A stretch of 64,000 nucleotides of DNA from an uncultured Flavobacteriaceae bacterium (GTDB taxonomy: Bacteria > Bacteroidota > Bacteroidia > Flavobacteriales > Flavobacteriaceae), in contig CANLRK010000003.1 in NCBI GenBank assembly GCA_947493535.1, forward strand, positions 62,001-126,000, written 5' to 3'. How positions within the stretch are numbered: the stretch's first letter is position 1; the number at the start of each line of letters is the position of its first letter. Below the pieces are notes generated by a model. The model saw only the letters and a list, made by a program, of their open reading frames with translations. It was not told the DNA's origin and made no database searches. Positions 2,154 to 11,332 of the stretch are shown here, piece after piece. The position numbers were made by a program, and so were the translations under genes.

Positions 2154-3017
2154 TTAGCCTAAGTAGGTTTTTAATATTTTACTTCTAGAAGTGTGTTTTA
2201 ATCTTCTAATTGCTTTTTCTTTTATTTGTCTTACACGTTCTCTAGTCAAGTCAAAAGTTTCTCCAATTTCTTCTAAAGTCATCGGGTGTTGATCTCCTAA
2301 ACCAAAATATAAGCTAATAACATCAGCTTCACGTGGAGTAAGCGTTTGTAAAGCACGCGTAATTTCTGTACGTAAAGATTCGTGTAACAAAGTACGGTCT
2401 GGGTTTGGTGACTCACCTGAACGCAATACATCGTATAAGTTAGAATCTTCTCCTTCTACTAAAGGTGCATCCATAGATACATGACGTCCTGAGTTTTTCA
2501 TTGACTCTTTTACGTCGTTAATTGTCATATCTAATTCCTTAGCAATTTCTTCAGCTGAAGGAACGCGCTCATGCGCTTGCTCTAAAAATGCATAGGTTTT
2601 ATTAATTTTGTTTATAGAGCCAATTTTATTTAAAGGCAATCGTACAATCCTAGATTGTTCTGCCAAAGCTTGAAGGATTGATTGACGAATCCACCAAACA
2701 GCGTATGATATAAACTTAAATCCACGAGTTTCGTCAAAACGTTGAGCCGCTTTTATTAACCCAAGATTTCCTTCGTTAATTAAATCGGGTAATGTTAATC
2801 CTTGATTTTGATATTGTTTTGCAACAGACACCACAAAACGAAGATTTGCTTTTGTTAATTTTTCTAAGGCTACTTGATCACCTGCTTTAATTCGTTGTGC
2901 TAATTCTACCTCTTCATCGGCAGTAATTAAATCAACTTTTCCTATTTCTTGTAAATACTTGTCTAAAGATGCAGTTTCTCTATTGGTTACCTGCTTGGTG
3001 ATTTTTAGTTGTCTCAT
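2154..3017 (-). CDS. rpoD: Primary sigma factor (sigma-70 group 1, Bacteroidota type)
   Basis: The product is 287 residues, the short form typical of Bacteroidota housekeeping sigma, with no region 1.1. The order is region 1.2 ([20 protein letters not shown]), regions 2.1-2.4 ([18 protein letters not shown], then [15 protein letters not shown]), region 3 ([12 protein letters not shown]) and region 4 with the helix-turn-helix [20 protein letters not shown]. It directs RNA polymerase to TTTG / TAnnTTTG promoters, many of which are visible in this window. A strong Shine-Dalgarno site with ideal spacing precedes the ATG, which is exceptional for this phylum (see finding). The gene is transcribed alone and ends in a hairpin terminator. 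Confidence 0.96.
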
Positions 3018-3024
3018 TAAGTTT

Positions 3025-3030
3025 CCTCCT
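3025..3030 (-). promoter_or_regulatory. Strong Shine-Dalgarno site of rpoD
   Basis: On the minus strand AGGAGG occurs with exactly 7 bases before the rpoD ATG. The other starts I inspected in the window (pnp, rpe, nqrA, the protease genes) have only A/T-rich leaders, as expected for a lineage in which the anti-SD is sequestered. This site fixes the start codon and stands out. Confidence 0.8.
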
Positions 3031-3136
3031 GATTATTTAGTTGTTATTTTGCCTACGCATTAGGTTATACGTATAAAAAGAGGTTTTTGTTACAAAAAAG
3101 ATTAAATATTTTATAACTACTTGATTTTTAATGTTT

Positions 3137-8767: not shown

Positions 8768-11332
8768 TTAAAAAGGATAATTTATACCAAAATTATAAAC
8801 AGCATTTTTGAAGTTGTAGTTTTTAAACCATTTTTCGTTTTCTAGGTAAGGTTCGTAGGTTTTAAAACCTACATCGAATCTTAAAATAAAGAAGCTAAAG
8901 TCATATCGTAATCCCATACCAGAGCCAATAGCTAACTCACTTAAATCGTTTAAAGAGTCAAATGTAAAGGCAGGGTCTTCTTCGTTATCTAAAACATTCC
9001 AGATGTTTCCGGCGTCAACAAAAACAGCGCCTTTCATGTCGCCAAAAAAGGTGTAACGAAGTTCTGCATTTAAGGCTATTTTAAGATTTGCTTCGTTAAA
9101 TTCGTTAATACCACCACTCACTCCTGGTCCTAACGCATAGGCGTCCCAACCTCTATTATCATTACTTCCACCTCCAAAAAAACTTCTAGAGAAAGGTATT
9201 GATTTTGAGTTGCCATATGGAATGGCTATTCCGAAGAAACTTCTTATAGCAAAAATATTATTGTTAGATAAATCCCAATATTTAATATAGTCTAGTTCTG
9301 TTTTTACATATTGTGAGTAGGCAACATTAAATAGCTCGTAGCGATCATTGCTGTTTTTTTCTAAACCAAAGAGATTTGATAATGTAGATAATGTATTTCC
9401 CGCAAATTCAATTTTAGCTCCAAAACGGCTAAAGGTATTGTCTAGTAAACTTGTTCGTGTGTTTCTTATGTAAGAGTAGTTGGTGGTTAAAATTAAGTTG
9501 TTTTCTGTAAGACGTTCTCTACGTTCTTCAATATTTCTAACTTCTTGTTTGTCTTGATTAGACAATAAAGCATCTACGGTAGGTGTGAGATTATTGTTAA
9601 TAACATCATTAATAAATTGATTGGCTTGGTCAGGTATAGCTAACCCATTGCTGGTATATGTTGAGTTTAATGCTATTGAGTTTAACCTATTATATGAGTT
9701 GGCATAAATATTAAAGTATTTATCAGGATTCAGGTTACGTACAAATTGTGCATTAAATAAATCTAAACGATTGGTGACAGATTTTGAAGAATACCACCCA
9801 TAATTAAGAACACCGGTAAAGGTAGTTTTGTCTAACCCAATATTAGTTTGTGTGCTTGCTCCAAGGCTAATGCGGGTTGTGGGCGACATTACTTTGGGGA
9901 TTATTTTTGAGGTGTTTATTGGGAAAAATATTCTTGGAAATGATAATTTTAAATCGGCACCAAACTCTCGTACGTCAAAAAATTGATCTTTTTCATCTGC
10001 AGCATCTTTTGATGCGCCTATTGATCCTCTAAAAGCAAGCTCTAAGTTTTCTGCTCCTCTAAATACATTTCTTGCTAATAAAGATGTACTTAAAGATAGC
10101 CCTAAATTTTGAATGTTATTGTGTAATGCATCAAGACTATATTCTAGTTCAAACTTTTTAAGTGGTGTAAGTAAAATATTTGCAATTAAACTAGTTTGAG
10201 TAGAGTCTCTGTCATCTAATAAATACTTTATATTGGGGTATTTAAATGCTCTTAAGTTGTTTAGTTGGTTTAAGGTTAAGGCTTTGTCGGTGTCTTTGTA
10301 AATAGTGTTTGGTTTGATGAATATTACATCGGAAAGCGCTTTAGGTTTGTAGCGTAATTTATCAAAACTATAAAAATGGTGATTGTTGTATGTAGTAGAA
10401 TCGGTTATTGATTTACTTCTGTTTTTATAGCTAAAATCAGTAAAAACATTTACTTCACTGATTTTATATATTTTATAAGGTTCCTTGTAAGTAGTGTCGT
10501 GTTCACGTACTTTTTGATCTTCAACAAATAACTCAACCCACATGGTTTTCTTAATAGAATCGTAGGCGTTATCAAAATAAATACTTTCTTTTTCAAAAGT
10601 ATATAAGCCAGAGTTGCGCATAAGGGTAGTAATCCTTTCACGCTCATTAATTAAGTGCTGGTCTCTATATTGGGTATTGAGTTTAATTCGTGAGTTTTTA
10701 AGGTGTAAATTGTAGATAGAATCAACAGATTTTGAATCAATTTGTTGTGTAATAGAATCTATAATATAAGGTTTGCCAGTTTCAATAGCATAATTTACCT
10801 TTCCTTTTTGGTTGTTATTGTATTCAATAGAGTAGTTAGTATTTACATCACGCCATCCGTTTTGGGTGTAATATTTATTCAAATTTTCAATACTACTATT
10901 AATTTTGCTAGAGTCAATTATAGCAGGGGGTTCGCCCGATTTTTTTAACCAGTTGTTTAGTCCTGCGTAAGAACGTTGCAGTTTAATGGTTTGTTTTTTA
11001 GATAAAAACCTGTGTAAACGTTGCTCGCGTTTAGGGTTTCTTTTTAACCAGTTTGTAAAGGAAGAGTCAGGTGATTTATCGGCTAAGTTATAAATTCCTA
11101 AGCGTAAAGGGTATAATAAAAATTTACTGTTAGGTTTTGGTTTAATAAGGTTTTCAACTATTTCATCTTTATTGTTTTCTTCATTTACCAAAATATCATT
11201 TTCTGTTAGTAGGTATTCATGTTCCTCTAAATTTTTAGTACTACTACAGGAAATAAAAACCTGAGTAATTATCAGAATAAATGATATTTTTGTGAATAAA
11301 TGTTTCAATAGAATAGTTGAAATTAAATTCAA
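8768..11332 (-). CDS. tamL: TamL-type outer-membrane assembly lipoprotein (BamA/TamA superfamily)
   Basis: The product has 854 residues. The N-terminus has a hydrophobic signal segment ending in the lipobox FISC followed by SSTKN, so it is a lipoprotein. POTRA-like regions follow (IDSITQQI...RIKLNTQY, YKISEVNVFTDF, IFIKPNTIYKDTDKALTLNQLNNLRAFKYPNIKYLL). The C-terminal half is a 16-strand-type Omp85 barrel with the signature region RSFFGGGSNDNRGWDAYALGPG and a terminal FGINYPF ending in aromatic F. A lipidated TamA homologue is the Bacteroidota TamL form, thought to act with TamB in outer-membrane biogenesis. It is divergent from the TrmH-family gene with only 15 bases between the two starts. 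Confidence 0.88.
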   Translation of the reverse strand: MNLISTILLKHLFTKISFILIITQVFISCSSTKNLEEHEYLLTENDILVNEENNKDEIVENLIKPKPNSKFLLYPLRLGIYNLADKSPDSSFTNWLKRNPKREQRLHRFLSKKQTIKLQRSYAGLNNWLKKSGEPPAIIDSSKINSSIENLNKYYTQNGWRDVNTNYSIEYNNNQKGKVNYAIETGKPYIIDSITQQIDSKSVDSIYNLHLKNSRIKLNTQYRDQHLINERERITTLMRNSGLYTFEKESIYFDNAYDSIKKTMWVELFVEDQKVREHDTTYKEPYKIYKISEVNVFTDFSYKNRSKSITDSTTYNNHHFYSFDKLRYKPKALSDVIFIKPNTIYKDTDKALTLNQLNNLRAFKYPNIKYLLDDRDSTQTSLIANILLTPLKKFELEYSLDALHNNIQNLGLSLSTSLLARNVFRGAENLELAFRGSIGASKDAADEKDQFFDVREFGADLKLSFPRIFFPINTSKIIPKVMSPTTRISLGASTQTNIGLDKTTFTGVLNYGWYSSKSVTNRLDLFNAQFVRNLNPDKYFNIYANSYNRLNSIALNSTYTSNGLAIPDQANQFINDVINNNLTPTVDALLSNQDKQEVRNIEERRERLTENNLILTTNYSYIRNTRTSLLDNTFSRFGAKIEFAGNTLSTLSNLFGLEKNSNDRYELFNVAYSQYVKTELDYIKYWDLSNNNIFAIRSFFGIAIPYGNSKSIPFSRSFFGGGSNDNRGWDAYALGPGVSGGINEFNEANLKIALNAELRYTFFGDMKGAVFVDAGNIWNVLDNEEDPAFTFDSLNDLSELAIGSGMGLRYDFSFFILRFDVGFKTYEPYLENEKWFKNYNFKNAVYNFGINYPF

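Follow-up and report, generated by a model that had tools for sequence, protein, structure and literature searches.

A probable Shine-Dalgarno sequence of intermediate strength before the primary sigma factor gene rpoD in Flavobacteriaceae

Does a Shine-Dalgarno (SD) sequence serve the primary sigma factor gene in a lineage that otherwise avoids such sequences? The question was raised by the hexamer AGGAGG in front of rpoD in the window, i.e. the whole 64,000-nucleotide stretch of DNA analyzed here (GenBank assembly GCA_947493535.1, contig CANLRK010000003.1, from an uncultured Flavobacteriaceae bacterium). In a screen of 200 Flavobacteriales, SD-dependent control was limited to rpsU, and SDs were absent from the ribosomal genes of the order except rpsU (PMC9976891). 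A literature search returned no title or abstract describing an SD on rpoD in Bacteroidota; supplementary tables may list this gene. The word “rpoD” has no occurrence in the main texts of PMC9976891, PMC8710568, PMC10783764, PMC9723704 and PMC6847099. By the leader comparisons below, rpoD seems to be a second gene with an SD, in an order for which the literature names only rpsU.

The rpoD gene (287 aa) occupies positions 2154–3017 of the minus strand, and its relatives in 80 named loci are 74–98% identical. The start codon, an ATG at 3015–3017, is well placed, since the RpoD N-terminus from the first Met was conserved in 169 of the 189 leaders collected. Upstream of it, the minus strand reads TAATC-AGGAGG-AAACTTA-ATG, with AGGAGG at 3025–3030 and a 7-nt spacer at 3018–3024; the hexamer was thus found exactly where the earlier note had put it, 7 nt before the ATG. 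AGGAGG is complementary over its whole length to the 3' tail of the genome's own 16S (GGAACACCUCCUUUCU), and pairing with the CCUCCU there amounts to 6 bp and -8.6 kcal/mol (16S locus L010).

To describe other genes on the same scale, the SD zone of their leaders was scored for its strongest continuous pairing with the 16S tail. Background genes were ORFs of at least 120 aa, taken from the most upstream ATG, in two genomes (the present one and a relative, G177). With rpoD excluded, a correctly spaced AGGAG was present in 0 of 698 background leaders from the two genomes, and eight of these paired at -4 or better. Over 400 kb of contig C1 of the present genome, no AGGAG was located 6–10 nt from the start of any of 335 genes; the mock zone held two, and the best pairing in the SD zone was -5.4. 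The 400 kb of G177 were chosen to include rpoD, which supplied the sole AGGAG among 315 genes and the strongest pairing as well (-5.3; runner-up -5.1). Within the window, rpoD alone among 50 genes has a spaced AGGAG. The assertion that other leaders lack an SD was therefore borne out in both the window and the 335-gene sample. A second strong pairing in the window (-7.4) was discounted; it falls at an ATG inside a longer ORF (8768–11332). The pattern AGGAGG-N7-ATG had 22 matches across the whole genome, and the reversed pattern had six. None of the 21 matches other than rpoD is an evident gene start: six lead into ORFs of at most 24 aa, and 15 lie in frames that are open for at least 14 codons upstream. 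At the match with 14 open codons (L338), a true start is unlikely.

For the study of conservation, 189 distinct rpoD leaders were assembled. Named genomes supplied 79 of them (one of the 80 found was dropped), and numbered genomes of the same family supplied 110, after two of 112 had proved identical to named ones. In RpoD sequence, these 110 genomes are among the closest of the matches listed. AGGAG was found 6–10 nt from the ATG in 49 of the 110 family leaders and in none of them when the zone was shifted by 17 nt (mock zone). A 4-base core without AGGAG was present in a further 16 (mock zone, four), and 45 leaders had neither. After leaders at least 70% alike had been removed, 22 of 78 contained AGGAG and 35 had the core or more; by chance, 0.09 occurrences of AGGAG were expected in these 78 leaders, with a maximum of two in 2000 shuffles. 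In the wider named set, AGGAG was present in 7 of 59 canonical leaders, and 16 of the 59 paired at -4 or better (mock zone, 0); among the named-set leaders with another N-terminus, 0 of 20 paired this well.

The earlier note had proposed that conservation be sought for AGGAGG itself. Conservation held for the AGGAG core, as just described, and failed for the exact hexamer, which occurs in only 4 of the 189 leaders, three of them (the window's included) from the present genus; AGGAGG as a conserved unit was consequently rejected. Elsewhere in the genus, AGGAGG-N7 is retained in two genomes (L092 and L093) and missing from the third (L094). The form common to the relatives is AGGAG, mostly followed by A: this base, and not the pairing G, came next in 23 of 27 non-redundant leaders, which argues that pairing strength is not being maximized.

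In a 77-row rpoD tree, the 4-base core appeared in several separate groups of Flavobacteriaceae (Flavobacterium, Aquimarina/Salinimicrobium, Altibacter/Aequorivita, and the present genus with Tamlana), and at least 10 changes were needed to account for its distribution. The two Flavobacterium leaders L032 and L038 have GAGGAG. None of the 14 rows of a second sigma clade had the core; in at least one assembly, this clade represents a paralogue (L039 and L063). In other families, the core was found in 6 of 30 leaders (f14, 2/2; f3, 1/1; f7, 2/10; f11, 1/3). Canonical CACCUCC 16S tails were read in the present genome and in five others of the family. One rpoD that is 98% identical (L011) is carried by a contig titled “Candidatus Rokubacteria”; it groups with Flavobacteriaceae in the tree, and the contig is probably a mislabelled bin.

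The start codon of rpoD has an unusual context. The base at -3 (position 3020, minus strand) is U, which is disfavoured in the Kozak-like context. In F. johnsoniae, high ribosome density accompanies A at -3, -6, -12 and -13, and the best-read genes have U at -3 less often (PMC6847099). T stood at -3 in 90% of the 78 non-redundant family rpoD leaders vs. 25–30% of background genes, about half of which have A there. A occupied -2 in 87% of the same 78 leaders, and in the window both -2 and -3 are T. This conservation at -3 and -2 was seen in leaders that have an SD and in those that lack one. With U at -3, and with G at -12 in 46% of family leaders, rpoD has a poor initiation context.

The promoter is distinctive, too. 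A -35-like box, TGTAAC (3089–3094, minus strand), and a -10-like box, CGTATAA (3065–3071, minus strand), lie upstream of the gene, with 17 nt between GTAAC and CGTA. The arrangement GTAAC-N16/17-CGTA was present upstream in 162 of 189 rpoD leaders vs. 0 of 335 background genes; the commonest letters of the boxes are TTTTTTGTAACA and TACGTATAAC, arranged as TTTTTTGTAACA-N-TACGTATAAC, and the -10 box is on average 52 nt upstream of the ATG. TGTAAC-N14-19-CGTATAA occurs twice in the whole genome, once before rpoD. The usual -7 box, TAnnTTTG, was located no more than 100 nt from the ATG in only 10 of 162 non-redundant rpoD leaders vs. 105 of 335 background genes. The 162 leaders with the boxes agree with the consensus for promoters of the ECF type (a GTAAC-like -35 and a CGTA -10, 16–17 nt apart). 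As judged from these motifs, the rpoD promoter resembles an ECF promoter and is nearly exclusive to rpoD, and transcription of the primary sigma gene seems not to use the usual box of the primary sigma factor.

Relatives with an altered anti-SD offered a comparison. The anti-SD pattern UCUCA was found in 43 of 296 genomes of the order, 40 of them in one family (f5, probably Weeksellaceae), most of whose genomes have it. The rpsU leader in this family is AAATGAGATGT, the new complement of the changed anti-SD. The 24 distinct rpoD leaders of f5 had a mean pairing of -2.5 with the changed tail and -2.9 with the canonical one (mock zone with the changed tail, -0.1). Five of these leaders are from genomes that do not match UCUCA (G401, G456, G503, G508 and G546), and the remaining 19 gave the same answer (-2.4 and -3.0, respectively). 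Covariation of the rpoD SD with the anti-SD was thus not found in general among the 24 leaders. The exception was genus g276, in which the changed tail paired better in 4 of 4 distinct leaders (-5.0 to -9.6 vs. -2.5 to -5.4). AGGAG was present in 1 of 30 f5 leaders (L211, at 12 nt); the site may simply have been lost in this family, and the claim of an rpoD SD is retained for families with the canonical tail. Many f5 rpoD leaders (within L203–L232) have a short hairpin in the place of the SD, with arm sequences that differ; the mean folding z was only -1.0 (24 leaders), so no conserved structure is claimed. Further variants of the 16S tail in the order are CACCUCAUUU (L383, genome G310 of f12) and AACUCCUUAUU (L384/L390, G301 of f3). 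The rpoD leader of G310 contains TGAGG 19 nt from the ATG; as an SD it was set aside, being too far from the ATG and seen in one genome. The rpsU leader of the f5 genome G456 (L240), in which a search for 16S found none, is AAAAGAGATGTAA, a sequence that suggests yet another anti-SD.

What, then, is the AGGAGG before rpoD? A single 6-mer in a single genome could be accidental, but recurrence in relatives was sought and found, and the contrast in AGGAG between the leaders of the family (49 of 110) and the controls (0 of 698) makes chance scarcely credible. Nor is it at all probable that the site acts at the DNA level, as an operator or part of the promoter. A strongly conserved promoter does lie upstream, its -10 box at the mean distance given above; however, among 58 leaders holding AGGAG, the standard deviation of the distance to the ATG was 1.08 nt vs. 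5.2 nt for the distance to the -10 box. The register is therefore kept with the start codon, the signature of a translation signal. The distance to the ATG was 7–10 nt in 56 of the 58, with a peak at 8–9 nt, the usual distance of an SD from a start codon. This peak also counts against the idea that an RNA-binding protein or a small RNA binds here, near the start, and that the likeness to an SD is incidental; so do the extensions of the motif (AAGGAG, GAAGGAG, AAAGGAG and AGGAGG), which match the 16S complement, although this agreement is partly circular given that the script selects pairing stretches. The biased flank (A after AGGAG) and the short hairpin that replaces the site in many f5 leaders would suit such a binding site, which we regard as improbable overall. 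Accessibility did not set the bases apart: they were not more open (0.58 unpaired) than the remainder of the leader (0.65). No hairpin is claimed after the promoter in the present family (mean z, -0.5 over 107 leaders).

A further reading holds that ribosomes without bS21 preferentially translate rpoD, such that sigma synthesis would rise together with rpsU when bS21 is short or the 30S subunit unfinished. The present genome has the rpsU leader expected for such control (outside the window): AGAGAGGAGGU pairs over 11 bp, with one wobble, at -16.7 kcal/mol by the method used for rpoD, in keeping with the published account of rpsU. In F. johnsoniae, a C-terminal deletion in bS21 raised a tuf reporter bearing the 7-bp AGGAGGU more than 2-fold (PMC9976891), and the rpoD site is one base pair shorter; U at -3 should also make its leader a poor template for complete ribosomes. 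Against this, an extended SD of 9–13 bp and below -13 kcal/mol (calculated with another program) is required for bS21-dependent control, and a weak AGGA on tuf showed virtually no effect of the bS21 mutation (PMC9976891), whereas rpoD reaches 6 bp and -8.6 kcal/mol in the present genome and typically -5.3 kcal/mol in relatives. Since AGGAGGU responds and AGGA does not, AGGAGG falls at the upper edge of the range between them, and the typical AGGAGA lower. Moreover, rpoD on the whole does not track changes in the anti-SD as rpsU does, and the number of bS21 genes was not linked to AGGAG before rpoD (25 of 55 genomes with two or more genes, 11 of 24 with one). Of the earlier proposal that sigma synthesis is tied to rpsU-type control, the conserved AGGAG core survives; the weaker pairing, the want of general covariation and the bS21 gene counts speak against the rest. 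Preferential reading by bS21-lacking ribosomes is accordingly judged unlikely. Two or three bS21 genes were present in 55 of 80 family genomes, including copies (L243, L248 and L252) whose leaders lack an SD; a built-in heterogeneity of ribosomes is possible.

The site is present, rare in its genome, recurrent in the family, anchored to the start codon and complementary to the 16S tail of its own organism. It looks selected, and we consider it probable that the site is a genuine, intermediate-strength SD by which initiation is raised on an mRNA with a poor context. Pairing with the 16S tail would be the working contact by which translation is raised, to judge from the sequences compared. The standard, SD-blind ribosome would be expected to read the rpoD leader poorly because U replaces A at -3 and G often stands at -12, where A is favoured. 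Pairing of five to seven bases with the 16S tail could then lift initiation whenever that tail is unbound or can be drawn out of the bS21/bS18/bS6 pocket, and in this way would help to determine how much primary sigma factor is made.

An SD that recurs before the primary sigma gene and is anchored to its start codon implies possible use of the hidden anti-SD by a second gene, one outside the ribosomal set, and a possible role for pairing of intermediate strength. Conserved sites of such strength can escape a threshold applied per genome. If the SD acts through ordinary ribosomes, SD blindness is graded; if it acts through tail-exposed ones, ribosome assembly is joined to global transcription. 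A more speculative extension, to which we give little credence, would make rpoD a second client of SD-reading ribosomes (bS21-free or tail-exposed): unfinished or bS21-poor 30S subunits would favour sigma synthesis, U at -3 would gate complete ribosomes, and the ECF-like promoter would decouple rpoD from its own activity. Were this true, the state of ribosome assembly would be linked to transcription capacity.

Known systems resemble the rpoD leader in part. CGT in the -10 box has been ascribed to ECF factors in Flavobacterium psychrophilum, and the rpoD promoter shares this feature with the ECF-type motif SM6 of that organism; SM6 was described for secretion and envelope genes (PMC9723704). 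The closest counterpart of the SD itself is the extended SD of rpsU in the autoregulation of bS21 in Bacteroidota (McNutt et al. 2023, PMC9976891), likewise an SD in an SD-avoiding lineage, with the same 16S tail as partner and the same position before the ATG. The rpsU SD, however, comprises 9–13 bp at -14 to -21 kcal/mol (PMC9976891), compared to 5–7 bp and mostly -5 to -9 kcal/mol for rpoD. It follows changes in the anti-SD, which the rpoD SD in general does not, and it precedes the gene for a protein that hides the anti-SD, whereas rpoD encodes a sigma factor and has U at -3. In other orders of Bacteroidia, the SDs of rpsR (-7 to -14 kcal/mol) are intermediate like that of rpoD; there, SDs are described on rpsR and other ribosomal genes (PMC9976891), whereas rpoD is non-ribosomal.
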